Shown one piece after another: positions 18,700 to 50,181 of a stretch of DNA of 64,000 bases. The position numbers were made by a program, and so were the translations under genes. Numbering within the stretch: the stretch's first letter is position 1; every line of letters starts with the position of its first letter. Origin of the DNA: Halorubrum californiense DSM 19288. GTDB taxonomy: Archaea > Halobacteriota > Halobacteria > Halobacteriales > Haloferacaceae. The stretch is taken from contig NZ_AOJK01000057.1 in the NCBI RefSeq assembly GCF_000336875.1, positions 13,530 through 77,529 on the forward strand, given 5' to 3'. The notes under the pieces were generated by a model that saw only the letters and a list, made by a program, of their open reading frames with translations, was not told where the DNA came from and searched no databases.

Positions 18700-20616
18700 C
18701 TACTCCGCGACGTTCGTCTCGCGAACGCGGACGCCCTTCCGGCCGAGGTGCCGCATCTGTCGCTGGGCGAACTCCTCCCCGCTCGACCCGCGCGTCGCGA
18801 GGACGTAGACGAGCGCGGAGCCGGTCGGGCGCATCGTCCGCCCCGCGCGCTGTGAGCCCTGTCGCCGGGAGCCGCCCAGGCCGCTCGCGACGACCGCCAG
18901 CTCCGCGTTCGGGAGGTCGATCCCCTCGTCGCCGACCCGGGAGACGACGAGGACGTCGAGGGCGTCGTCGTCGCGCGCACCCGCCGAATCCTCCTCGCCC
19001 TCGGTCGCGTCGCCGTCTGCCGCCCGGAACCGCCGGAACAGCTCCGCGCGCTCGTGGTGGGGCGTCTCGCCGCTGATGAACGGGGCGTCGAGCGCGTCGG
19101 CGATCGCACGCCCGTGATCGAGGTACTCGACGAAGACGAGCGCCTTCTTGTCTCGGTGGGCGGCGAGCAGGTAGCGGATCTCCTCGACCTTGGCGGGGTT
19201 CTCGGCCGCGAGCCGTCGGCGTTCGCGGCCGTCCGCGGCGGCGTACTCGTTTCGGGCCGTCTCGTCACGCCACGGGACGTACCGTATCTCGACCTCGGGC
19301 TCTTGGACGAAGCCGGCCTCGAAGAGGGAGTCCCAGTCGGCGCCGATGGGTTGGCCGATGAGGGTATATATCTCCTCCTCGCTGCCCGTTTCGCTGACGG
19401 GGGTCGCCGAGAGCCCGAGTCGGTGTCTGCTCTGGAACTCGGCCGTCCGGGAGTAGACGGGGCCGGTGACGTGGTGCACCTCGTCGAAGCAGATCAGCCC
19501 CCACTCGCGGGAGTCGAAGAGGCTCCGGTGGCGGTCCATCCCGGCGATCTGGTACGTCGCGATCGTGACCGGGCGGATCTCCTTGGTGCCGCCGTGGTAC
19601 AGCCCGATGTCTGCGCGGTCGACCGTGGAGTGCTCCAGCAGTTCCTCCCGCCACTGGTCGGCGAGTTCGCGCGAGGGGACGAGGATGAGCGTCTCGCCGC
19701 CGACCGCCGCGATCGTCGCGATCCCGGCGACGGTCTTTCCGGAGCCCGGTGGGCCGACGTACACACCGGACTTGCGGTCGAGGAACGTCTCGACCCACGT
19801 CGCCTGGTAGTCGCGGAGGTCCGTGGTGAGTTCGATCTCGACCGGGTCGCCGGTCTCCAGGTCGCGGTCGTCCTCGACGGGGTAGCCGGCGTCGTAGAGC
19901 GCGCGCTTGACCGCGGCGACGGCGTCGTCGTTGACCCACGCCTCAGTGTCGGAGATGGGCGCGCGGAGGTGGTCGTCGTCGAGGTGCTGGTCGGCGACGT
20001 TGCCCATCAGGCTCTCCGAGGCGGCTTCGAGGACCACGTAGCCGTCCGCGTGGGTATACAGCCGGAAGCGGTGCGCGCGGCGCCACTGGTCGCGCACCCA
20101 GTCTTCGAGGTGGTCGTCGCGCCGCGGGATGACGGAGCGGAGCGCGCCCACGAGCGCGTCGGCGTCGTCGAACGGCGCGGCCCACACGTCCTCCTGCCGG
20201 ATCCGGTAGAGGTAGCCGCGGGTTCCCGGCTCGGTGCCGGTGGTGTCGACGAGGTTCGCGAACTGCGAGAGCCGCGCCCGGGTGTACTGCGTCGGGCGGT
20301 CGACGACTATCTCGCGGCGCTTCGGGAAGACCACGACGCGCTCGCGGCTCGCCAGCGCCCCCCAGTCGCGCGGGTAGAAGACGACGGGGTCGGCCTCGAC
20401 GTCGAGTCGGTCCACGTCGCCGCGGTCGACGAGCGCCGCGAGCGCGTCGCGGGCGGCCGCCTGCGTGGTCCCGAGTCGGCGGGCGACCTCGCTCGCGGTC
20501 GCGACCGGGCGCTCCTCGGCTTCGAGCGCCTCGTGGAAGCGATCCAAGGAGAGGTTGTTAGCGTCGTCCTCGCTGAGATCGTCTCCGGCGTCATCGCCGG
20601 TATCGTCGGTCATCAC
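18700..20616 (-). CDS. XPB/Rad25-like DNA helicase with winged-helix N-terminus
   Basis: 638 residues. Residues 10-75 look like a winged helix (ASEVARRLGTTQAAARDALA). About 75-250 is a damage-recognition-like region, and a two-domain SF2 motor follows. Motif I is GPPGSGKTVAG near residue 293, motif II is ICFDEVHHVTG, motif III is LGLSATP, and motif VI is GSQRAGRTMRP. DEVH-type motif II and the fold order match archaeal XPB. It is larger than canonical archaeal XPB, and a second, canonical XPB is encoded at 34932. A DNA repair or transcription-associated role is likely; the partner is unknown. Confidence 0.85.
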   Translation of the reverse strand: MMTDDTGDDAGDDLSEDDANNLSLDRFHEALEAEERPVATASEVARRLGTTQAAARDALAALVDRGDVDRLDVEADPVVFYPRDWGALASRERVVVFPKRREIVVDRPTQYTRARLSQFANLVDTTGTEPGTRGYLYRIRQEDVWAAPFDDADALVGALRSVIPRRDDHLEDWVRDQWRRAHRFRLYTHADGYVVLEAASESLMGNVADQHLDDDHLRAPISDTEAWVNDDAVAAVKRALYDAGYPVEDDRDLETGDPVEIELTTDLRDYQATWVETFLDRKSGVYVGPPGSGKTVAGIATIAAVGGETLILVPSRELADQWREELLEHSTVDRADIGLYHGGTKEIRPVTIATYQIAGMDRHRSLFDSREWGLICFDEVHHVTGPVYSRTAEFQSRHRLGLSATPVSETGSEEEIYTLIGQPIGADWDSLFEAGFVQEPEVEIRYVPWRDETARNEYAAADGRERRRLAAENPAKVEEIRYLLAAHRDKKALVFVEYLDHGRAIADALDAPFISGETPHHERAELFRRFRAADGDATEGEEDSAGARDDDALDVLVVSRVGDEGIDLPNAELAVVASGLGGSRRQGSQRAGRTMRPTGSALVYVLATRGSSGEEFAQRQMRHLGRKGVRVRETNVAE

Positions 20617-21809: not shown

Positions 21810-22646
21810 TTACGCCGACACAGGGAGATCAGTTGTTTCGACCCCGAAACTGGGCAGCGACTCGCAGGCCTTCCCGTCGCCGTCGGCGTCGAGGTCGTGG
21901 GGATCGCCGGCGATCCGATCGAGGACGGCGTTCGCCTCCGCCCGCGTGTCGAAGTCGGAACAGTCGTAGTCCCCGTCCGCGGGGAGCGGCGGGAGGTCGG
22001 CGTCGTCGACCTCGCTCACCTCGGTGGGGTAGTCCGACTCGTCGAAGTCCCAGAGCCCGACCCCGCGCTCCCTCGCGTCGGCTTCGGCCGCCGCGTACGC
22101 GTCGCGCAGCGCGAACTCGGTGTCATACAGCCGCGCGTCCCCCTCCGTGAGCAGGCGCTCGTTGAAGTCCTCGCCGTCGACGTACAGCACCGCCAGCAGC
22201 CGCCCGTACCCCCCGCGGCGGTCGCCGCCGGTGACGACCGTGACCTCCTCGCCGGCGAGTTCCGACTCCGCGAACGCAGAGGCCTCGATCCCCCACGCCC
22301 GGAGGTGCGCCCGGCCGGCGTCCGTCTCCGGGATACCCTCGAACTCGGCGGGCGACGTCGATCCGGCGCTCGTCTCGGGCGTGTCGACGCCGAGGAGCCG
22401 GACGGTGTCGACCTCGCCGTTCGGGAACTCGATCTCCATCGTGTCGCCGTCGACGACGCGCACGACGGTCCCGATCCACGCCGTGTCGTCCGGATCGTTC
22501 GGGTCGGCGCCAGTCGGATCTGGGGGTGGCGAGTCGAGATCGGCGTCACCCGGGGCAGTGTCCGAGAGATCGGTGGTCGGCACGCCCGCACAACCCGCCA
22601 ACGCGACGAGCGCGACGACAACAATCGCTGCCCAACGGACTCGCAT
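21810..22646 (-). CDS. Secreted thermonuclease-family lipoprotein with excalibur domain
   Basis: 278 residues. The N-terminus MRVRWAAIVVVALVALAGCA is a lipoprotein signal with a lipobox ending in LAGC, so the protein is probably anchored outside the membrane. Residues 58-200 form a staphylococcal-nuclease-like domain: VVRVVDGDTMEIEF, VRLLGVDTPE with catalytic Asp, GGYGRLLAVLYVDG with Arg, and ERLLTEGDARLY. The last 45 residues hold an excalibur calcium-binding motif DLDADGDGKACESLP. It likely degrades extracellular DNA. ATG 22646 is chosen over 22673 because the signal peptide starts there. Confidence 0.9.
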   Translation of the reverse strand: MRVRWAAIVVVALVALAGCAGVPTTDLSDTAPGDADLDSPPPDPTGADPNDPDDTAWIGTVVRVVDGDTMEIEFPNGEVDTVRLLGVDTPETSAGSTSPAEFEGIPETDAGRAHLRAWGIEASAFAESELAGEEVTVVTGGDRRGGYGRLLAVLYVDGEDFNERLLTEGDARLYDTEFALRDAYAAAEADARERGVGLWDFDESDYPTEVSEVDDADLPPLPADGDYDCSDFDTRAEANAVLDRIAGDPHDLDADGDGKACESLPSFGVETTDLPVSA

Positions 22647-39160: not shown

Positions 39161-39234
39161 GCCAGGGGAGCATGGGTGGTTCATGCACTCGACTTGTAAT
39201 CGAGACTTCCGGGGTTCAAATCCCTGCCCTGGCT
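39161..39234 (+). tRNA. tRNA-Thr (anticodon TGT)
   Basis: Acceptor GCCAGGG pairs with CCCTGGC, discriminator T. The anticodon arm CTCGACTTGTAATCGAG has TGT at 34-36, and the T-arm GGGGTTCAAATCCC is regular. 74 nt, no intron. Its 3' half is the probable attachment site for the element that follows. Confidence 0.95.
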
Positions 39235-39474
39235 TCGATGGTTTTGTTCACACGCCAACGAAACAGCAGTCGCCACTATCCACGCCCCTCGGCCGAGATG
39301 GCCGGGGGGTCATTTCGCTGATCAACCCGATACGAGAGACGGCAGAGACGCCGCAGTCTCTCGGTTTCGGTCACCGCAGGATGAACGCCTCGGCGCAAAA
39401 CCCCACGCGTCGAGACAACCGTTACACGCCGATGTGAGAAGGAGGTACCGTAACCGTGCGTGGTTACTCGTCCG
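39235..39474. other. Noncoding stretch after tRNA-Thr
   Basis: About 240 bp. Nothing here forms a convincing gene in either direction; an arginine-rich minus-strand frame through it looks like a shadow of the 39475-39639 gene. No hairpins of note beyond short GC stems (GAGACGGCAGAGACGCCGCAG near 39334). Confidence 0.4.
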
Positions 39475-39639
39475 TTAGCGGTAGTCCGCCAAATCCACCG
39501 TCTCGTTCCGCGCTGAGACACGGCGCTCGTGTCGTCGCGCGGCGCGCTTGAGACGACGGCCGAACGGCGTGTCTTGTCGCATCGCTTGCCGGCGTGCGCG
39601 CTCCTCCTTGAACCACCGATCCAACTCCGCAGGATCCAT
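39475..39639 (-). CDS. Small charged protein (54 aa), element-borne
   Basis: Minus-strand ATG 39639 to TAA 39475 encodes 54 residues, MDPAELDRWFKEERARRQAM then RQDTPFGRRLKRAARRHERR, ending VDLADYR. GGAGGAA just upstream is a possible ribosome site. The frame stays open for 15 codons upstream (LPDGLHPPARWEE), suggesting an originally longer protein starting at ATG 39686 with one indel. Small charged proteins like this are typical of haloarchaeal plasmids and proviruses. No function known. Confidence 0.5.
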   Translation of the reverse strand: MDPAELDRWFKEERARRQAMRQDTPFGRRLKRAARRHERRVSARNETVDLADYR

Positions 39640-39682
39640 TTCCTCCCACCGTGCGGGAGGATGTAGTCCGTCTGGTAGTCAG

Positions 39683-39745
39683 TCATCCATCATCATCCGT
39701 CCGTTCGTCGTTCAACTCCCGCGCCTCGTCCGCGAGGTAGCGCCG
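39683..39745 (-). pseudogene. 3' fragment of an element gene, cut at the CRISPR repeat
   Basis: On the minus strand, 20 codons RRYLADEARELNDERTDDDG end at TGA 39683-39685, which overlaps the ATG at 39684-39686 of the next frame (ATGA coupling). Going upstream the frame meets a stop inside the first CRISPR repeat, so only the C-terminus remains. The junction with the repeat is at 39745/39746. Confidence 0.45.
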
Positions 39746-39969
39746 GTTTCAGACGAACCCCTGTGCGTTTGAAGCCTCGGACCAGTGCCGGGTCACGTCA
39801 CTTCGGAGGCGTTTCAGACGAACTATTGTGAGTTTGAAACAACATCGTGAAGCTGCTCCTAAACTCATTCTGAGGCTTTCAGGCGAACCCTCATGAGTTC
39901 GAAGCACGAGCGACGACACGGTGCTGTTTGTCGAGCACGGTTTCAGACGGGTAGCGTTGCGATAAGGAA
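39746..39969 (+). CRISPR. Degenerate four-repeat CRISPR array (orphan)
   Basis: 30-nt repeats at 39746-39775, 39811-39840 and 39876-39905, and a fourth starting at 39940 that matches only its first 10-11 bases (GTTTCAGACG). All begin GTTTCAGACGAAC or close, and end TTTGAAGC, TTTGAAAC or TTCGAAGC. Spacers are 35, 35 and 34 nt, and starts are 65, 65 and 64 nt apart. The repeat closely matches the haloarchaeal type I-B repeat known from Haloferax. The repeats differ from each other and the last is degenerate, and there are no cas genes in the window. Confidence 0.8.
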
Positions 39970-39993
39970 TGAGGCGGTCAAAAGATTGAGTGG

Positions 39994-41709
39994 TCAATGC
40001 TCAGTTTCGACCGCCTTAGCGATGGGTAGTTGAATTGTCACACAGGACCCTCCAAGTGTCGTTGCGTCCGTGATCGAAAATGATCCATTTGAGTTCCGAA
40101 TAGCGTATTCAACTAACCAGAGCCCCACACCCGAGCCATGTGACAGTGCTGTTTCTGTTCGGGTTGTCAGTGGCGTAACTTCGTCGCCGTCAATTCCTGG
40201 ACCATCATCCTCGATAGATACGATACCGTTGTTCCCTTCGGTTTGAACTGTCACAATGAGGTGTGGCGGTGAATCGCCTGTATGATGCTCAATCGCATTT
40301 TCAAACAACTCTTTTATTACAGTTTCGATGAGCGGGTGACCACTAACAGTAATCTTCTGTTCAATCGTTGTTTCGATTGTCGCCGGTGTATTGTCACTCA
40401 GTCGTTCGACGTGGGTCTGTACTATTTCAGAAATATTATGTTCCTGTTGTTGTTGATTATTGCGGATGAGTTTTCGGAGGTCAGTAGCTTTCTCACTGTG
40501 GGCGAGCAGTTGTTGGCTTGCCTGTTTGATTTCTTTAATCTCGCTTGTATGCTCATCCGCTGTATCGTTGCTCTCGACAAGTGCTGCGTACCCATTGATG
40601 ATATTCAATTTGTTTCGGAAGTTATGCCGGAACACCCGGGCGAAAATACCATTCAGAAGCTCTAAATCGGTTTCTCGTTTCCGAAGCTGGGTAATATCGC
40701 GGAAGACAATTACTGTCCCAACTTGTTGATTCCCTTGTCTGACTGCTTCTGTCTGTGGGATGAATTCCCGCTTCTCACCGTGCTGTGTCACGGTTAGCTC
40801 TGTGGGGGCCGTGTCCTCATCGATGACTGCCTGTAACTGAGGGTACTCCGCAAAGAGGTTCTCTGTGCTGACACCGACTGGATCTTTGTCGATATTGAAT
40901 ACGTCTTTTGCAGCCTGATTCATATCAACGACAACCCCAGACTGTCGCACTGTCATTACGGGATCACCCAAGATCTCAACGGCCGTACGACGACTCACTG
41001 GGACAAGATTGAGTAACTCATACCTGTTGAGAGCAAGTCCCCAGAGTGACGCCGTGATCAGAAAGGTCGTCGGTGTGAAATCAATATACAATGGAATTAA
41101 CTCAATATTTCGAAACAAATGTGTCTGAAGCGCCCCTGGAAACCCAATGGCCCATCCAGCCATCAGCAGCAACAGTTGGCGGCGGTGAATACCGTGTGCG
41201 CCGCGAAAATCAGAGATGAGCAGCCCTATCGGGAGCATTGCCAGCGTACTCGCGTACGCGATGTGAACGTAGTACCATGGCCTGAGAACGAACTCACTGA
41301 TACCTGCCGGGTTGGCCGGCGTTGCCGGGTCGATAATCAAATAGTGGAGCGGGTTTGTTGCTGCCAGTACGATACTACTAAGAGGAATGATTAACACTCC
41401 GACAAGTAATCTCTGTGAGACGTGTATTTGTTCACGGCGTAAGTATTCAACCACAAACAACGGCCACCCAACGGCAACTAATGTCTGAAATGTAAAGCGG
41501 CCCGTAATATTCATGTGGACAGGGAGTACAGCACTTGGCCACGTCAATAATAAAAGCATCAGCGACCATCCAACCATCCCAACCAAACAGAGCAATAACC
41601 CACGCGCACCTGGCCTGTCTCGATTCTGTAGCACATAACCAGTGACGCCAATAATTGGGATTGTTGAGAGAAACATCAAAAATGCCATCGACTGTGCTCC
41701 CTGTGTCAT
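39994..41709 (-). CDS. Membrane sensor histidine kinase (7TM-PAS-HisKA-HATPase)
   Basis: 571 residues. Seven N-terminal membrane helices (about 1-220) form a histidine-kinase 7TM sensor module. A PAS domain follows (about 240-345; GVVVDMNQAAKDVFNIDKDP, TVIVFRDITQLRKRE). The phospho-acceptor His is in VFRHNFRNKLNIINGYAAL. The ATPase domain has the N box IKELFENAIEHHT, G1 DDGPGID and G2 HGSGVGLWLVEYA. All key residues are intact. The codon usage is AT-richer than the chromosome. No cognate response regulator is adjacent. It would sense a membrane-borne or small-molecule signal of unknown nature. Confidence 0.92.
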   Translation of the reverse strand: MTQGAQSMAFLMFLSTIPIIGVTGYVLQNRDRPGARGLLLCLVGMVGWSLMLLLLTWPSAVLPVHMNITGRFTFQTLVAVGWPLFVVEYLRREQIHVSQRLLVGVLIIPLSSIVLAATNPLHYLIIDPATPANPAGISEFVLRPWYYVHIAYASTLAMLPIGLLISDFRGAHGIHRRQLLLLMAGWAIGFPGALQTHLFRNIELIPLYIDFTPTTFLITASLWGLALNRYELLNLVPVSRRTAVEILGDPVMTVRQSGVVVDMNQAAKDVFNIDKDPVGVSTENLFAEYPQLQAVIDEDTAPTELTVTQHGEKREFIPQTEAVRQGNQQVGTVIVFRDITQLRKRETDLELLNGIFARVFRHNFRNKLNIINGYAALVESNDTADEHTSEIKEIKQASQQLLAHSEKATDLRKLIRNNQQQQEHNISEIVQTHVERLSDNTPATIETTIEQKITVSGHPLIETVIKELFENAIEHHTGDSPPHLIVTVQTEGNNGIVSIEDDGPGIDGDEVTPLTTRTETALSHGSGVGLWLVEYAIRNSNGSFSITDATTLGGSCVTIQLPIAKAVETEH

Positions 41710-42199
41710 AACTACAGCTCCCTTGATATGTCATACTAAATTATATCAACAGTAAGTATATACTTTATGTATATCTTATTATATATCTTACTAAAATTAT
41801 ATAAAAGATGTCAGAGAGTGCTTCGGCGCTACTCTCATACTTAAGAAAGCAGAAATGCTCAACAACGACCGGCCTTAGAGCAGCTATTCACGGTGTTCAA
41901 CGATAATCTGGCCAATACGCAGCTCAGCGCGCGCTGGGTGCTAAACTACATACGCTCTTGTGGAGCACATTGTTGATGGACTGCGGTATTGCGACTTGCG
42001 GGTGCGTGAATCAAATTTGGAGTCCACGGTAGAGGTGATTAGAAAGTCAATTGGTGTTCCCACTCAGCTACCAACGACTGTATCAACAATCTCCTACAGA
42101 AGAGCGCATGTATAATTTCACTAACTGCTGAATAAAATAGTATTGGGTCTTCTTGCTTATTTATTTAGATTTATATGTTTCTGTGCGAAATGTTATATA
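41710..42199. other. AT-rich intergenic region between divergent kinases
   Basis: 490 bp. 41733-41810 is extremely AT-rich with several TATA-like runs (TATATACTTTATGTATATC, TTATTATATATC), which could serve both directions. At about 42160-42177, TTTATTTAGATTTATAT lies 25 nt before ATG 42200 and is the likely TATA for the GAF kinase. From 41875 to 41990 a plus-strand frame reads EQLFTVFNDNLANTQLSARW then VLNYIRSCGAH before a stop; it could be a gene remnant but is not recognised. Confidence 0.4.
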
Positions 42200-43318
42200 A
42201 TGGGATCTTCTGAGAGGGATAACATCGAATACCAACAAGCGGTTTCAGAGCTTCATAATGTCGCAAGTGAACTTGCCGAGATGGATTCTCAGGATGATAT
42301 CTGTCACCGGATTATCGATGCTGCGGAAACACTCTTAGATTTCGACTTCTCGATCGTTGCGCTTGAAGAAGGTGGGCGATTGTGTCCCAAAGCCGTCTCT
42401 TCAGAGTTAGAACCCGACGAGTTCGATACGATGTCTATTCACGACGGGGTCGCGGGAAGATCATATCGAACGGGTGAATCGTACCTTATTGATAACACGC
42501 GCGAGCATGAGGAGGCCGATCCGAGGGGACCGTGGATGTCCGCGATTAGTCTTCCAGTCGGTGAGTTTGGGAATTTTCAAGCGGTCAATGAAGATGTCGG
42601 TGCGTTCAATGAACAAGATTTACAACTGGCAGAATTGCTCATTACTCACGCCTCACATCATCTTAGTCGAATAGCGAATAAAGAGGAGTTATAACAACGG
42701 AACAATCGTCTAGAAAAATTCGCCAGCGTCGTCTCTCATGACCTCCGGAACCCGCTGAATGTCGCCCAAGGTCGATTAGAACTGGCCAGAGAGGAGTGCG
42801 ATAGTGAGCATCTTGACGACGTCGTTCACGCTCACGATCGAATGAGAAGTCTAATTGACGACCTCCTCACTCTGGGACGCACAGGCGACAGTGTCAGCGA
42901 GCTTGAACCAGTTGACCTGGCGAACCTCACCGCAAACTGCTGGAAAAATGTGGATACCGCCGGGGCGTCACTGACTACTGAGATCGATCGACAAGTTCTG
43001 GCCGACCAGAATCTGCTCCAACAACTCTTTGAGAATCTTATACGAAACGCAATCGATCACGGTAGCCCCGATGTAACGGTCGAAATCGGAGAGTTGGACG
43101 GAGGGTTTTATATTGAAGACGATGGGCCAGGGATTGCTGATAAGGAACAAGATGCGATATTTGAGCTAGGCTACTCAACCGCCGAAAACGGGATTGGACT
43201 TGGACTGAGCATCGTCAAACAGGTAACGCACGCTCATGGCTGGGACATCCATGTAACCGACAGCTCCCTCGGAGGGGCACGGTTTGAGATTACCGGCGCT
43301 GAGTTCGCTCATAAATAG
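42200..43318 (+). pseudogene. GAF-HisKA-HATPase histidine kinase interrupted by one TAA
   Basis: One 372-codon frame from ATG 42200 is broken only by TAA at 42692-42694 (codon 165). Before it is a GAF domain (about 20-160: ICHRIIDAAETLLDFDFSIV, DGVAGRSYRTGESYLID). After it the same frame continues with NNRLEKFASVVSHDLRNPL (phospho-acceptor His), MRSLIDDLL, N box LFENLIRNAIDHG, G1 DDGPGIAD and G2 GIGLGLSIVKQV, to TAG 43318. Without the stop it would be a normal soluble haloarchaeal kinase. As written it gives a GAF fragment and a possible internal product from ATG 42842 lacking the His box. Confidence 0.85.
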
Positions 43319-43582
43319 CTCTTCGATATATTGGAGGTCAGCTTTCCACAGTTCAGATCGATTATGGATTCGGTAGCTGCTTCATCTGTACTGAGCGATC
43401 GGGTTGGGTGTGGGAAGTCTTCTACGACACCCTCACCTCACACATATCAACATCTAAGCTTCAACAGAGCTAGCCATAGATTTCTGAGCGAATTTAGGAA
43501 CTGACACGTGGAACTCGGAAGGTTTCCATCGCCTCCGGTCGGCTAGTGATAATCTGTTACTGACGCGCCTTCCGCGGGCCGA
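43319..43582. other. Intergenic region between convergent kinase and integrase
   Basis: 264 bp, moderately AT-rich, with no open frame that resembles a gene and no clear repeat. Confidence 0.4.
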
Positions 43583-44818
43583 CTAGTCCTCTGCGAACAC
43601 GTCGCGGAGTTCGGGGTGTTTCTCGAACAGGTCCAGCAGGTCGGTCAGGCGGTCGGCGCTGTCACCCTCCACTTGTGCCAACATATCCGCGATTTCGAGC
43701 CGGTTGTCGGTGTCCTCCATCGACGCCTCCGCCTCCATCGCCTGCCCGCACCACACGCACCGCGACTCGTCACGGGGCGTCTCGCGGTCGCACCGCGGGC
43801 AGACGAGCGGCGCGAGTTCCTCGGTGGTATCCTCGTCCTCGACTTCGATGCCCATGAGCCGGGCGTACTCGTCGCCGATGTCCGCGTCGAAAATGGCGGT
43901 GTAGCGAGACACGGCATCGGAGCCGTGTTTCCGGCCCTGTCGGCGTTCGATGTAGCGGGCGTTCATGCCCTGCTTCGACAGCCACGCGAGGTTCGACTTG
44001 CGGAAGTTCGTGGGCGTCACGTCCTTCTCGACGCCGGCGCGTCCCGCGCAGTCCTTGAACATATCGAGGTACGAGCGGTAGGAGAGTTTGTCGGGCGAGT
44101 TGAGTTTCGACCACATCGGATCATCGCCGCCGCCCGGATGATCGGAGAGCCAGCGATTGACGTGCGGCGTCGACGGGATGAGGTCGACGGTGCGCTGGCC
44201 GGTCTTGCCGTCGACGGTGACCGCGAGGCCGTGATCCGTGCGGCTGATCGTGTCGATCGTGAGGTCGTACAACTCGCCGCCGCGAAGGCCGGCGTCGAAG
44301 GCCAACGCGATCGCTGCGGCGTCGCGGCTGTTGCGGGCCGCGTCGATCATCGGCTTCACGTCGTCTTCCCAGTCGAGCATCGCCGTGGGGTCGGGCGACG
44401 GGTCGTAGTCGTTCGGCAGGGTCGAGGAGATCCAGTCGATCGACGACGGCGGCGTGTCGCTCCCGTCGACACCCTCGTCGGTCGCACGGCGGCCGAACAC
44501 GCGGAGGGCGACGCGGTAGTTTTGGTTCGTCTCGGGCGTTTCGTGGAGGTCGTACTCGTCGTGTATCCACCGCACGATCGTCTCTGCGGCGTCACGGTCG
44601 GTGAGTGCGTCGGTGAGGTCGACGCCGTCGGTCTCCTCGGACATCCGCGTACAATGTCGGAGGAGTTTGATGTGGCGGTGCCAGCCGTAGTCTTCGCGCA
44701 ACAGTTTGAGGCGGTCGGAGAATTCGAGGAGGATGTCGCGGTCAGTGTCGGAGCCGCCTCGCTCGCCGGTCTGGAGTTAGGTGTGGAGTGTGTCGACCTG
44801 ACCTTTCGGGTCGGTCAT
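43583..44818 (-). pseudogene. Tyrosine recombinase/integrase with in-frame stop at codon 14
   Basis: From ATG 44818 the frame reads MTDPKGQVDTLHT, then TAA (44777-44779), then LQTGERGGSDTDRDILLEFS and on without break to TAG 43583. The rest is a full haloarchaeal phage-type integrase: SAM-like core-binding domain (about 40-120), catalytic Arg in FDAGLRGGELYDL, second Arg in TPTNFRKSNLAWL, GRKHGSD and nucleophile Tyr in AVSRYTAIF. A zinc ribbon follows near the C-terminus (LVCPRCDRETPRDESRCVWC). Restart at TTG 44701 would give 372 residues without the first part of the arm-binding region. Confidence 0.8.
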
Positions 44819-44856
44819 ACGCGGTGTCTTTATTCCTTGGTACTTGAGCCTTTGCC

Positions 44857-44880
44857 TCAAATCTCTTGCCTTGGCTTTGG
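44857..44880 (+). repeat. Candidate attR: diverged copy of the tRNA-Thr 3' end
   Basis: TCAAATCTCTTGCCTTGGCT followed by TTGG resembles the tRNA-Thr end TCAAATCCCTGCCCTGGCTT then CG (39216-39237). Over 23 aligned positions I count three mismatches, all C to T, and one 1-base gap. It is 39 bp beyond the integrase start, where an att site would be expected. Confidence 0.5.
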
Positions 44881-45115
44881 GCGTTTCGTTCTATCGCTCC
44901 TGTCGGTGCGGAGTTCGGACTCGAACACGCCGGAATTACGCCGGGCACGGCCGAGAAGTTCCACCTCGACACGGTCCGGAACTGTCCCGTACCCGGCTCG
45001 AAACTGACTCCGATCCGCGGGGTGTCGCCGAGTCAGAGCCCCGGAACGGGGTTGCTGACCCGGTCGGCGTTTGCCACCACGTGTACGCGAGTGATTTCCT
45101 CCGGCCCCTCCTCCG
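44881..45115. other. GC-rich intergenic region right of the element
   Basis: About 235 bp of chromosomal-style GC-rich DNA between the candidate attR and the stop of the RND gene. Open frames exist on both strands, but they have no recognisable protein features and overlap the RND gene; no gene is supported. Confidence 0.4.
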
Positions 45116-47590
45116 TCAACGCTGAGACGGGGTCGGGGACGGTTTCGTGCTGGGTTCACCGGGCTGGTACCGCTCCCACAGCAGCACGGCCGGCGGGAGC
45201 GCAACGATCGTGAAGATGAACGAGTAGATCACGCTCAGGGCCATGAGAAGCCCGAAGTCACCGAGGACGGGCGTAATCGCGAGCGCGAGCGCACCGGTAC
45301 CGAGCGACGTGGTGAGCATACTGCCGAGCAGCGCGCCACCGGTACCGGAGAACGTGATGACCATCGACGTGAGTGCGTCCCCGTTCTCGTTGTACTCGTC
45401 GATGAACCGGTGGGTCGCGTGAACGGAGTACGCGATCCCGAGTCCGATCGAGATGGACAGAATCGTTGCTGTCAACGCGTTAAGCGAGAGTCCAAGGGCG
45501 CGCATGGTTCCAAGGAGGAACGCGATGGCGATCACGATCGGGAACAGGTTGACGATCCCGAGCAGCGGCTTCCCCTCTAAGACGCCGTAGGCGATGACGA
45601 GGAAGACTCCGGTGAGCCCCATCGCGAGGATCAGCCCTTGGATCGCGGAGTTGAAGATGATATCCGTGACCGCGGCAAACACCACGAGTTGGCCGGTCGC
45701 GGTCGCCTCGAGTCGGAAGTCCTCAGCGAACTGGCTGGCGTCGGCGGCCGCTTCGCTCTGCGTTGCGCTCGAGTCGATGGCGTAGTCGATCTGTGCGTTT
45801 CGCCGGTCGGGGGTGAGATACTGCGCCGCCCGGTCACCGGCCGGTGACGCGAACAGTTCGTCGTAGATGCGCTCCAGATTACGGTCGGGAACGCCGTTGC
45901 CATCGACATCGCTGCGGGCGACGAGGCGGGCGAATTCCGGGTCCCGCTCGGCCTGTGACTGAATCACGGTGATGATGCTCGTCGGGCGAGCGCGGCCACC
46001 GTCACCGACGCCGAGCGTGCCGGGCGGATCCGCGTTCGGGGCGGCGATCGCTTCGAGCGCGTGATCCTCTTCGAAGTTCCCCTCGACGTATATCTTCACT
46101 GACTGGTCTTGGCTGGTCGAGAAGCGATCCTCCAGCAGTGAGACCGTTTCCGTAACGGTGTACTCGCTCGGCGCGAACGGCCCCGGAAGCGCAGTGACGT
46201 AGTCGGGGAGTTCCTCCGGCGGGAGGAAGTCTTCGGTCTCGAAGGAGGTGTCGACGCCGCTGCCGTAAGCCGTTGCCATCCCCCCCGAAATGAGCAGCAC
46301 GATGACAAGCGCGATCGGTGCGTACTGGCTGATCTGTGTCGGAAAGCTGAGTAGCTTACCGAGCGTCGAATCGCTCGAGGATATCGGCGCGGAGTTGAAC
46401 TCCGGCACGCCGTATGCGTCGCGGAGTTTGTCGACCTCGAGTTTCGCCGCCGGGAGGAACAGCCCGAAGATCAGGAAGGTGAAGACGATCCCGATCGCCG
46501 AGGCGATACCGAGGTCGCGGATCGGACCGAGATCGGAGATGACGTTGGCACCGAACCCGAACACGGTCGTGGCGGTGACGATGATGAACGCGATCATCAG
46601 CTGGTTGTTCGCCTCCCGCATCGCCTCGATGGCGCTGTACCCCTTGACGGTCTCCTCGCGGTACCGGTTGATGATGTGGATCCCGAAGTCGACCCCGACG
46701 GCAAGCAACAGCACCGGGACGGCTATCATCTGCTGGCTGAACGGAATTCCGGAGTAGCCGAGGAAGCCGAACGTCCACACGACGGTCATCAGCAGCGACA
46801 GAAGCCCCAGAGACAGGTCGATCGGGTCCCGATACGCGACCACGAGGAAGATCAGCAGCAGCAGCACGACGACCGGCATCACGATCGTGAGCGAGTCGCC
46901 GATAACGTTCGCCGTTTCGGCGTTCGTCACGCCGGTGCCGAAGGCGCGGAAGTCGCCCGGGTAGTCGTTCGTGATCGACTGGACGGTCGTCTGGAGTTCC
47001 TGAAGCCCCGAGAAGCCAGCGGGCACGTCGTGTGACACGACGGTGATCGACGCCGACGCGCTGACGGCGGTCGGATTGAAGTCGGTCGACACCGCGCGGC
47101 TAAACTGCGCGTTCTGAGATAGTCGCTGGACCGTCTGGCGGACCGTCGTCGGACTCGCCGCCTCGACCGCGCGCCGCTTCTCGGTGATCGTCGTCGCGGA
47201 CGGATCGATCGCGCTCGCGACCACCATCGCCGGACCGTTCGCCGACTCGACTCGCAGGTCGTCCCGTTGTGAGAGATCCTCGAGTAGTCGCAGCTCTCGC
47301 GTGAGTTCCTCCTTCGTGAGGACGTTTCCGCCGGTGTGGATGAGTTGGGTCGACTCGCTGTCGGCCTCGAACGGGTCGTCGAACTCCTGGTTGACCGCGT
47401 CGAGCGCTTCCTGTTCGGCGAGCCCCTCAGTGAACGCATCTGTCGCTCCAGTGTCGGTACTGACGAGTCCGATGCCACCGGCAAACACCGCAGTAAGCAC
47501 GAGGAACGCGACGATCACCTGTCGCGGGCGGTCGACGATGGCGTCGTTGAGCCGCCGGATACCCGCCTCGATCCGATCACTGAGCGACAT
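45116..47590 (-). CDS. RND superfamily exporter (MMPL/COG1033 type)
   Basis: 824 residues with two repeats, each having one helix, a large external domain and then five to six helices (TM1 VIVAFLVLTAVFAGGIGLV; the second set starts YAPIALVIVLLISGGMATA). Family signatures are LLAVGVDFGIHIINRYREE in the first half and ISIGLGIAYSVHATHRFIDE in the second. It would export lipid-like or hydrophobic compounds using ion gradients. It is 3 bp downstream of the CARDB gene on the same strand and divergent from a TetR gene, a typical regulated export cassette. Start ATG 47590. Confidence 0.92.
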   Translation of the reverse strand: MSLSDRIEAGIRRLNDAIVDRPRQVIVAFLVLTAVFAGGIGLVSTDTGATDAFTEGLAEQEALDAVNQEFDDPFEADSESTQLIHTGGNVLTKEELTRELRLLEDLSQRDDLRVESANGPAMVVASAIDPSATTITEKRRAVEAASPTTVRQTVQRLSQNAQFSRAVSTDFNPTAVSASASITVVSHDVPAGFSGLQELQTTVQSITNDYPGDFRAFGTGVTNAETANVIGDSLTIVMPVVVLLLLIFLVVAYRDPIDLSLGLLSLLMTVVWTFGFLGYSGIPFSQQMIAVPVLLLAVGVDFGIHIINRYREETVKGYSAIEAMREANNQLMIAFIIVTATTVFGFGANVISDLGPIRDLGIASAIGIVFTFLIFGLFLPAAKLEVDKLRDAYGVPEFNSAPISSSDSTLGKLLSFPTQISQYAPIALVIVLLISGGMATAYGSGVDTSFETEDFLPPEELPDYVTALPGPFAPSEYTVTETVSLLEDRFSTSQDQSVKIYVEGNFEEDHALEAIAAPNADPPGTLGVGDGGRARPTSIITVIQSQAERDPEFARLVARSDVDGNGVPDRNLERIYDELFASPAGDRAAQYLTPDRRNAQIDYAIDSSATQSEAAADASQFAEDFRLEATATGQLVVFAAVTDIIFNSAIQGLILAMGLTGVFLVIAYGVLEGKPLLGIVNLFPIVIAIAFLLGTMRALGLSLNALTATILSISIGLGIAYSVHATHRFIDEYNENGDALTSMVITFSGTGGALLGSMLTTSLGTGALALAITPVLGDFGLLMALSVIYSFIFTIVALPPAVLLWERYQPGEPSTKPSPTPSQR

Positions 47591-47593
47591 CAG

Positions 47594-49276
47594 CTACTGC
47601 CGCCTCCGGTAGACGATCAACCCACCAGTGCCCACCACGAGTGCGGCGAGAAGGATAATGGGGAGCGGAAGCCCACCACCCTCACTGGCAGTCACCTCGA
47701 TCGGCACCCGGTAGGTGTCCGAGAGCTGGCTATCGCCGTCGACGTCGTCGTACCGGAAGTCGAGCGAGATCGGGTAGGTACTCTCGGGCGTGGCCGAGTC
47801 GGTGGTGGAGAGTTCGAACGTCATCGTCGTCGACTCACCGGCGCCGAGCGACTGGACGTAGCCGGTGTCGGTGTCGCCGGTTTCGAGCGGGTCGTTCGCG
47901 AACAGCCGCGCTTCGAGATCGCTTGCGGGCTCGCCGAGCTCGTTCGTCACGGTCACCTCGACGGTCCGCGTCCCGCCGGCGTCGATGGTGCGGTTTTCGA
48001 TGGCGACGCTGAAGCTGTCACGCTCCGGGGCGACCTCGGCGTTCACGACGACGTCGCTGTAGGCGCGAGCCGCGCCCTCGTCGTTGCGATACTGGACGGC
48101 AACGTCGATCGTTCGGAGTCCCGGCTCAGCCCCACCGCCGACGGAGAGCGGCAGCGTGAAGCTCGTCGACTCACCGGAGTCGAGCGGTCCGACCGCCGCG
48201 GACTGTTCGATGGGAATGAGGTTCCCGGCGGTGTCGGCATACTGGATGACGACGTTGTCTGCTGCGACGGGGCCGGTGTTCTCCACCGTCCCGGTGAGTT
48301 CCCCGTCTTCGCCGACGCGGAGCGTCGACTCTACGTCTTCGATTGCGAACGTCTGTTCGCTGAGGGGCGTCACGCCCGCGGAGAGTCCCCGATCAGTCTG
48401 CGAAATGCCGTCCGGCGTCTCGAACGACACTTGCCCGGAGAGCGCGTACTCACGGATCGGGGCCGTCGGCGTGAATGAGACGGCGTACGGAACGGTGATT
48501 TCTTCCCCCGGCGCGATCGACTCGACCAGCGCCGCGTCCGACGCGCGCTGTCCGAGCCCCAAGCCCGAACTCGACGATTCGAGCGCCACGGTGGCGTCGT
48601 GCGCAGCGGTCGCGCCGACGTTTTTGATCGTCGCGTCGAGCGTGCCTCGGTCGCCGACTTGGGCGTCGGTCGTAACGTCGACGATCCTGAACCGAGCGTC
48701 GTTGCTCACTTCGACGTCAACGTCGGCCGTAACGGTTTCTGTCCGGTCATAGCTGACGCCGCCGGAGAGCTGAGACGTGTACGAGTATTCCATCTCGACC
48801 TCGAGCTCGTAGTTGCCCGGCTCCGTCCCGTTCGGGACGGTCACCCCAATCGGCACCTCTCGGGGTCGCGTTTCCGTCACCGCACCCAGTGAGAGCGTTC
48901 CGGTCTCCACGGTGAGCGGCGAGTCGTCGGCCTCGGCACTCAGCCGAACGTTTCGCGCGGTCGTGACAACCTCACGGTTTTGCGGGGTTCCGATATCCAC
49001 TTCTCCGTCATTGATGACTTGAAGCGTCACCTGGTTGGTTCGTCCCGGAGTAACCTCAGGCTGCGCGAGTGCGACAGACAGATCCGGTGAACCGCGAACC
49101 AGCGTAGTGGTCTGCGGTTGCGCAGAGGACCCTGTCGGCGATGCCGCCGAGAGGTCAGTAGTGGCGGCATCACCGACCGGTGAGCTCGACGATGTCAGGC
49201 CAGCAGCGGCCCCGACGGTACCACTCGTGAGCATCAACGTGGCCACGAATATCGTGAAGATCGACTGCCGGTTCAT
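47594..49276 (-). CDS. CARDB-repeat surface protein with C-terminal membrane anchor (COG1361-like)
   Basis: 560 residues from ATG 49276. An N-terminal signal (MNRQSIFTIFVATLMLTSGT) is followed by several Ig-like CARDB domains (for example VTLQVINDGEVDIGTPQNRE, GTLDATIKNVGATAAHDATV and GELTGTVENTGPVAADNVVI). The C-terminal helix PLPIILLAALVVGTGGLIVY is followed by RRR, giving a membrane-anchored outer-face protein. In haloarchaea such proteins accompany COG1033 RND exporters and probably serve as an external accessory. It is the first gene of the two-gene operon. Confidence 0.85.
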   Translation of the reverse strand: MNRQSIFTIFVATLMLTSGTVGAAAGLTSSSSPVGDAATTDLSAASPTGSSAQPQTTTLVRGSPDLSVALAQPEVTPGRTNQVTLQVINDGEVDIGTPQNREVVTTARNVRLSAEADDSPLTVETGTLSLGAVTETRPREVPIGVTVPNGTEPGNYELEVEMEYSYTSQLSGGVSYDRTETVTADVDVEVSNDARFRIVDVTTDAQVGDRGTLDATIKNVGATAAHDATVALESSSSGLGLGQRASDAALVESIAPGEEITVPYAVSFTPTAPIREYALSGQVSFETPDGISQTDRGLSAGVTPLSEQTFAIEDVESTLRVGEDGELTGTVENTGPVAADNVVIQYADTAGNLIPIEQSAAVGPLDSGESTSFTLPLSVGGGAEPGLRTIDVAVQYRNDEGAARAYSDVVVNAEVAPERDSFSVAIENRTIDAGGTRTVEVTVTNELGEPASDLEARLFANDPLETGDTDTGYVQSLGAGESTTMTFELSTTDSATPESTYPISLDFRYDDVDGDSQLSDTYRVPIEVTASEGGGLPLPIILLAALVVGTGGLIVYRRRQ

Positions 49277-49423
49277 CGGGACGACCCCGCTGTTCGACAA
49301 CCAGTCGGTGTGTGCGGTACAGTGCGCAAGGAAGCTAGCTTTTCGTCAGAATACTTCATTCGGTGTGTCCTGAGAAACGGCCCACGAATTGATAAACGTA
49401 TTGTTCTTGGAGTTCTAAGTGAC
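49277..49423. promoter_or_regulatory. Promoter region between the CARDB-RND operon and tetR
   Basis: About 150 bp of AT-richer DNA between two divergent starts. AATTGATAAACG (49387-49398) and TCAGAATACTTCATT (49344-49358) are the AT-rich candidates for TATA boxes in the two directions; the exact promoters cannot be fixed. Confidence 0.4.
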
Positions 49424-49445
49424 GATCGATGGAGGCAAATCGATC
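49424..49445. promoter_or_regulatory. Candidate TetR operator (perfect 7-bp inverted repeat)
   Basis: GATCGAT (49424-49430), 8-bp spacer, ATCGATC (49439-49445). The total length of 22 bp suits a TetR dimer, and the site lies 28 bp before the chosen tetR start, between the divergent genes. If tetR started at GTG 49419 the site would be inside the coding region. Confidence 0.5.
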
Positions 49446-49472
49446 AGCAATCTGGGCCGAAGTGGAAAGTCA

Positions 49473-50090
49473 ATGAGCCGATTTACTGACCGCGACAGAG
49501 AGCGGATCCGTTCGCAGTTGATCGAGGCCGGCCGGGCGCTATTCACGCAGTTTGGCTTCGAACGGACCCGTATTAGTGACCTGACGGAGGAGGTCGGTAT
49601 CGGGACGAGCACGTTCTATCAGTTCTTCGATTCGAAGGAGGAACTATACGTCAAGGTACTTCTCGTGGAACGGCAGCAACTCGAAGAGAAGATCGCCGAT
49701 GCCGTTACCGCAGGAGAGACGCCGCGCGAAGAGGTTCAGTTGTTTCTGAAGACGACGCTCGATGAGGTTCAAGCGAACCCGCTTATTTCGGCGTTGATCG
49801 TCGACGGTGAGTTACGGACGCTTCAGGATCAACTCGAAGGGTTGGACGTAAAGGGAACGTTCACCGTGCCATCACCGGACGGCCCGGAACTCCCGTTTAC
49901 GAAACGGTGGGCGCAGCTCGAGACGTTCCGATACGATGACCCGGAACTCATCGACCGGTTGCTCATCTCGCTCATATTCACGGTCCGGTCGCGGAACGCT
50001 CCCGTCGGGACGGACGGTGACGTCGAGTACGCCCAAGTGGAGGAAGCACTCATCGAGACCATCGTAGACGGACTCTTCGAAGCCAGTTGA
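49473..50090 (+). CDS. TetR/AcrR family repressor
   Basis: 205 residues from ATG 49473. The N-terminal HTH is classical: ERIRSQLIEAGRALFTQFGF, TRISDLTEEVGIGTSTFYQF and FDSKEELYVKVL. The C-terminal ligand domain is all-helical and variable. It very probably represses the divergent CARDB-RND operon and itself. GTG 49419 would add 18 residues without known content, so ATG 49473 is preferred. Confidence 0.9.
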   Translation: MSRFTDRDRERIRSQLIEAGRALFTQFGFERTRISDLTEEVGIGTSTFYQFFDSKEELYVKVLLVERQQLEEKIADAVTAGETPREEVQLFLKTTLDEVQANPLISALIVDGELRTLQDQLEGLDVKGTFTVPSPDGPELPFTKRWAQLETFRYDDPELIDRLLISLIFTVRSRNAPVGTDGDVEYAQVEEALIETIVDGLFEAS

Positions 50091-50181
50091 CCGCAGTAGG
50101 GAGAGACAGAGTACGCTCTACCGCTCTGTCGGAGCCGCTCATCGGACCATTTCTTAAGTAGTCCCGACGCCCACGTCTGGT

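Follow-up and report, generated by a model that had tools for sequence, protein, structure and literature searches.

Within an inserted island beside a tRNA gene of Halorubrum californiense DSM 19288, we identified the remains of a CRISPR array. We favour the reading that it is a leaderless relic of a type I-B array, truncated by an insertion sequence (IS), and put the probability of this reading at roughly 80%. Four observations lead us to it: a missing leader, a fourth repeat cut by an IS, repeats that are individually degenerate in the manner of the trailer half of a congener's array, and congener I-B loci at the same insertion site. The initial annotation had described a decaying orphan mini-array in a tRNA-linked element and had offered a relic of a larger array as one of two readings. 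The description is borne out, and that reading favoured, by the degenerate repeats, the 10.9-kb island beside tRNA-Thr, the absent leader, the IS-cut repeat and the I-B loci that other species carry at the same tRNA-Thr.

The fragment lies on the forward strand of the window, by which we mean the whole 64,000-nt stretch of DNA that was analysed. Three 30-nt repeats, R1 (39746–39775, GTTTCAGACGAACCCCTGTGCGTTTGAAGC), R2 (39811–39840, GTTTCAGACGAACTATTGTGAGTTTGAAAC) and R3 (39876–39905, CTTTCAGGCGAACCCTCATGAGTTCGAAGC), are followed by a truncated R4 (39940–39949) that comprises the first 10 nt only, GTTTCAGACG. Measured from repeat start to repeat start, the spacing is 65, 65 and 64 nt. The intervening spacers S1 (39776–39810), S2 (39841–39875) and S3 (39906–39939) are even in length (35, 35 and 34 nt) and all differ from one another in sequence. 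R1 exceeds the gathering score of the Rfam family CRISPR-DR24 (35.3 versus 35 bits), R2 scores 24.4, under the cut-off, and R3 has no Rfam report yet stands in register with R1 and R2. We also scanned the 64-kb window with the haloarchaeal repeat consensus GTTTCAGACGAACCCTTGTGGGGTTGAAGC, accepting at most 8 mismatches. Exactly three places qualified, namely R1, R2 and R3, compared with none in three mononucleotide-shuffled windows, which argues against a chance origin of the repeats. ORFs of 74 and 82 aa overlap the array. Repeat number and length, spacing and spacer lengths all agree with the initial annotation, and the R1 score supports its assignment of the repeat to the haloarchaeal type I-B family. 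The array it had delimited is real, but its right end at 39969 overruns by 20 nt into an IS end; the true end is 39949.

R4 stops exactly where this IS end starts, so that GTTTCAGACG runs directly into sequence beginning GGTAGCGTTGCGATAAGGAATGAGGCGGTC. The 73-bp segment (39950–40022) is an end fragment of an IS6/IS240-family insertion sequence. Host contig C38 holds a 75-nt copy (46243–46317) that is 91% identical and has different flanking sequence on both sides. In congener copies (L049 and L051), a related full IS shows the same arrangement, followed by a transposase ORF with a DDE_Tnp_IS240 domain. No inverted partner end was found in 38–46 kb of the window, and the IS at 39950–40022 is therefore itself a remnant. 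The last codons and the stop of the histidine kinase ORF at 39994–41709 fall inside it. The possibility, raised in the initial annotation, that the repeats are a dispersed transposon end can be set aside: the IS end is solely the 3' neighbour of the array and does not include the repeats.

Upstream of R1, no leader is recognisable. We compared 39235–39760 with five I-B leaders, one from the host array and four from arrays of three congeners; the five do match one another, and the best match to the fragment's upstream sequence had an E value of 0.43. For this reason we call the array a fragment and not an array in its own right; with its leader missing, it should be unable to gain new spacers and should lack its own array promoter. 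Part of this left flank (39263–39449, forward strand) is 76% identical to sequence that, in the congener G402 (locus L151), lies just past the trailer of a degenerate I-B array; among 392 sampled genomes of the order, nothing else matched it at E ≤ 1e-6. Between this segment and R1 lies a possible small-gene remnant on the reverse strand (39475–39639; 54 aa from an ATG). It has weak similarity to a phage protein family of unknown function (phrog_37693, E 1.2e-5 over 28 residues) and gave no match in a tblastn search of plasmids.

The repeats have drifted to different degrees. Mismatches to the consensus number 3, 5 and 7 across the three, and anchor-2 is altered in every one. In haloarchaeal I-B systems, Cas6 binding involves the first 12 repeat nucleotides, the last 8 form the handle, and the adaptation anchors occupy repeat positions 11–15 and 18–22 (PMC9458426). 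In H. volcanii, A, U and G are all permitted as the first handle base, and position −1 tolerates U or A (PMC4326828). Judged by these published rules, R1 would have both its Cas6-binding nucleotides and its 5' handle, UUUGAAGC, intact; the U at −8 is as in the H. volcanii P2 array (PMC4326828). R2 would likewise have an intact Cas6 part, with a handle, UUUGAAAC, that is changed at −2. R3 is altered at positions 1 and 8 and, in its handle (UUCGAAGC), at −6; a C at position 1 is also seen in regular arrays of the congeners G015 and G241. R1 and R2 both retain all of nucleotides 1–12, which could reflect residual constraint or simply recent decay. Since R1 keeps its Cas6-binding nucleotides and UUUGAAGC handle, the host Cas proteins could conceivably act on it in trans and yield a single crRNA, that of S1. 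H. hispanica Cas6 processed regular repeats of other haloarchaea and did not process degenerate CreTA repeats (PMC9458426).

Such proteins appear to be available. The initial annotation had stated that no cas genes are near, which is true of the window on contig C57, but the host genome is not devoid of them. The genome-wide search for cas genes and full arrays that it had proposed turned up I-B cas genes on contig C67, together with an array of ~76 repeats (GTTTCAGACGTACCCTCGTGGGGTTGAAGC), a sister repeat to that of the fragment. There, cas1 adjoins the array and is followed by ORFs matching Cas3, Cas5, Cas7, a Cas8-like Cas_TM1802 protein and Cas6, a gene set (cas6-cas8-cas7-cas5-cas3, cas1) that looks complete at the level tested. 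The main array has two single-N assembly joins (18761–18784 and 21813–21836; L042), each flanked by a duplicated spacer, and its repeat number is uncertain at these points. Its spacers do not target the window, the best match having 8 mismatches.

The left edge of the island is a tRNA-Thr (TGT) gene (39161–39234, forward strand; ARAGORN and Rfam). From there the insert extends for ~10.9 kb (39235–50145), with its right edge between 50120 and 50150. Homology to congeners ends within ~0–12 nt of the tRNA-Thr 3' end. Using sequence matching window positions 39205–39246 as an anchor, we located the empty site in close congeners (loci L132, L135 and L137–L140), where tRNA-Thr is followed within ~4–32 nt by the equivalent of window positions 50120–50150. 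The island encodes a tyrosine recombinase of the phage integrase type (43583–44701, reverse strand; Pfam Phage_integrase, 3.5e-13; phrog_1), and this gene and the empty site in congeners together suggest that the island may be mobile. A search for a second attachment repeat found no copy of the tRNA end of at least 11 nt. Across the genus (L132–L171), tRNA-Thr (TGT) is an insertion hot spot, empty in several species and holding short inserts in others.

At this same tRNA-Thr, G015 (L146) and G241 (L145) carry I-B cas genes and arrays. G015 has arrays on both sides of its cas genes. The trailer-most repeat of the first lies ~27 nt after tRNA-Thr; the second, which points outward, has the orientation of our fragment and also ends in degenerate repeats. 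In G402, the sequence resembling 39263–39449 comes directly after the trailer of an array that is half degenerate and accompanied by a more distant cas set. The trailer half of that array shows drift of the same kind, position 21 being one of the two most heavily mutated. Because G015 and G241 have I-B loci at the same tRNA-Thr and G402 provides the flank match, these comparisons make a former I-B locus at the site plausible. The main loose end of the relic account is orientation. The fragment points away from the tRNA; in G402, G015 and G241, the arrays closest to the tRNA or to the matching flank have the reverse orientation. A one-step deletion next to the tRNA therefore does not give this arrangement, and either an inversion or descent from a second array beyond the cas genes, as in G015, is needed. 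The G402 locus itself (L151, G402:C90:2000-20000) belongs to a distant I-B lineage: its Cas proteins are 27–47% identical to those of the host, its trailer half is highly degenerate, and no Cas1 match was found in the assembly.

The initial annotation had also proposed a search for spacer targets. We searched IMG/VR with two exact 19–20-nt patterns per spacer, one for each half, and used BLAST to compare the array with phages and the joined spacers with plasmids and 392 genomes of the order. None of the three spacers had a credible protospacer in any of these collections, an absence that fits a relic but may also reflect sampling. A single IMG/VR contig contained an exact 19-nt match to S3 that does not extend, with 23 of 34 identities overall. 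S3 also matched many haloarchaea at 91–92% over 23–24 nt. We inspected the 20 best of these loci and rejected them as chance similarities to short, GC-rich coding stretches of unrelated genes; none exceeds 27 of 34 identities, and they have no PAM in common. Also set aside was an S1 match in Halobacterium noricense (G174), with 26 of 35 identities ungapped and a 5' CTG.

These searches bear on the other reading offered by the initial annotation: a living mini-array on a mobile element that borrows the host I-B Cas proteins in trans and whose crRNAs attack competing viruses and plasmids. The borrowing is conceivable, as the host system is complete at the level tested and R1 keeps nucleotides 1–12 and the handle U at −8 known from H. 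volcanii P2 (PMC4326828). The island also has an integrase and adjoins a tRNA, and mini-CRISPR arrays borne by Sulfolobales viruses, likewise very short and on a possibly mobile element, have been published (PMC6858448). Unlike those arrays, the fragment has no rival-element target that we could find, and its repeats are degenerate and IS-truncated. A role as a weapon against rivals is not supported. No credible protospacers came from IMG/VR, phages, plasmids or the 392 genomes, the leader is absent, the handles of R2 and R3 are changed at −2 and −6, and R4 is broken by the IS end. Furthermore, relatives of the island integrase (39–53% identity) at 11 loci had no such repeats in the flanks examined, up to 9 kb on each side. 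We regard this reading as improbable.

A regulatory role comparable to that of CreA, in which degenerate repeats guide Cascade to partly matched promoters, possibly those of the island kinases, strikes us as more improbable still. We looked for self-targets in the host by BLAST of the joined spacers, with one S1 seed pattern and in selected genome stretches. S2 has a gapped partial match on the reverse strand at 41875–41897, in the intergenic region upstream of the two kinases, and within these 433 nt its score is reached by none of 148 control spacers. However, we chose this stretch only once the match had been seen, and across a wider 7.3 kb the score is reached by 40 of the 148 controls. 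The match also contains a 2-nt bulge, sits ~165–190 nt upstream of the kinase start codon and has a 5' TTG, a trinucleotide missing from the six PAMs that PMC4326828 names for H. volcanii. S1 and S3 gave nothing convincing in the island, no TTC-flanked seed match of the spacers above chance was found within 38.5–46 kb, and there was no match of note between the spacers and the region upstream of cas6 or the CRISPR leader region. Degenerate ectopic I-B repeats that have lost the anchor-2 motif are typical of haloarchaeal CreTA modules (PMC9458426, PMC8501985), and in this respect the fragment resembles them. It differs in carrying three spacers where a CreTA module has one, and in lacking a linked cas operon (C67 versus C57), a TTC-flanked partial match in the vicinity and any recognised toxin RNA. 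Most improbable of all, to our minds, is an anti-cas orphan array, its spacers serving to block other CRISPR systems; PMC9071438 cites a report of this for E. coli CRISPR4. In its favour, the fragment is an orphan array, several I-B lineages circulate in the genus, and S3 has a 22/26-nt match to a cas5-coding stretch of the G015 locus. This match does not run across the whole spacer and is equalled by 1 of 40 control spacers, and S1 and S2 matched I-B loci no better than control spacers did.

We therefore return to the relic, for which we propose the following history. The fragment would be an internal or trailer-side piece of an I-B array left in an island at the tRNA-Thr hot spot. An IS6/IS240-family insertion sequence would have entered the fourth repeat, and a later rearrangement, presumably an IS-mediated deletion, would have removed the remainder of the array together with the bulk of the IS, whose 73-bp end was left joined to the gene for the histidine kinase. 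The leader and the rest of the left side would have gone as well, and the repeats would then have drifted. We infer this order of events and descent from a local I-B locus, as well as whatever activity is left or has gone. In principle, the host I-B system could process read-through RNA into one S1 crRNA. Taken further, transcripts from the flanks might be cut by host Cas6, and a crRNA of at least S1 (possibly also of S2, directed at the region between the kinases) might load Cascade and block an unsampled element or tune an island gene, the scrap being kept as a fixed guide gene. We think this unlikely.

Compared with regular haloarchaeal I-B arrays (Rfam CRISPR-DR24), the relic has the same 30-nt repeats, 34–35-nt spacers, GTTTCAGACG start and, in R1, TTGAAGC end, but it consists of three and a third degenerate repeats with neither leader nor adjacent cas genes. 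Objects of this kind are ordinary; the history of this one can be read. Orphan arrays have been discussed as possible remnants of decaying systems (PMC9071438) and are similarly short, cas-less and located on accessory DNA; our fragment differs from them in its readable truncating IS end and insertion site, and in the system with a close repeat on another host contig. It offers a clear snapshot of the death of a CRISPR array, with the leader lost, a repeat cut by an IS and the repeats drifting in a tRNA-gene island. With complete I-B loci at the same tRNA in other species, this picture supports the view that I-B loci turn over at one fixed insertion site. Only a demonstration that the scrap is used by the host machinery would give the fragment greater weight.

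The kinase gene joined to the IS end encodes a 7TM histidine kinase (39994–41709, reverse strand; Pfam HisKA_7TM and HATPase_c) and is part of the island's cargo. Further cargo includes an MMPL transporter, a protein with CARDB/NEW3 domains and a TetR regulator. At 42143–43318 (forward strand; Pfam and ORF list), GAF and HATPase domains are encoded by two ORFs in the same frame that are separated by a stop, and these are probably one broken histidine kinase.
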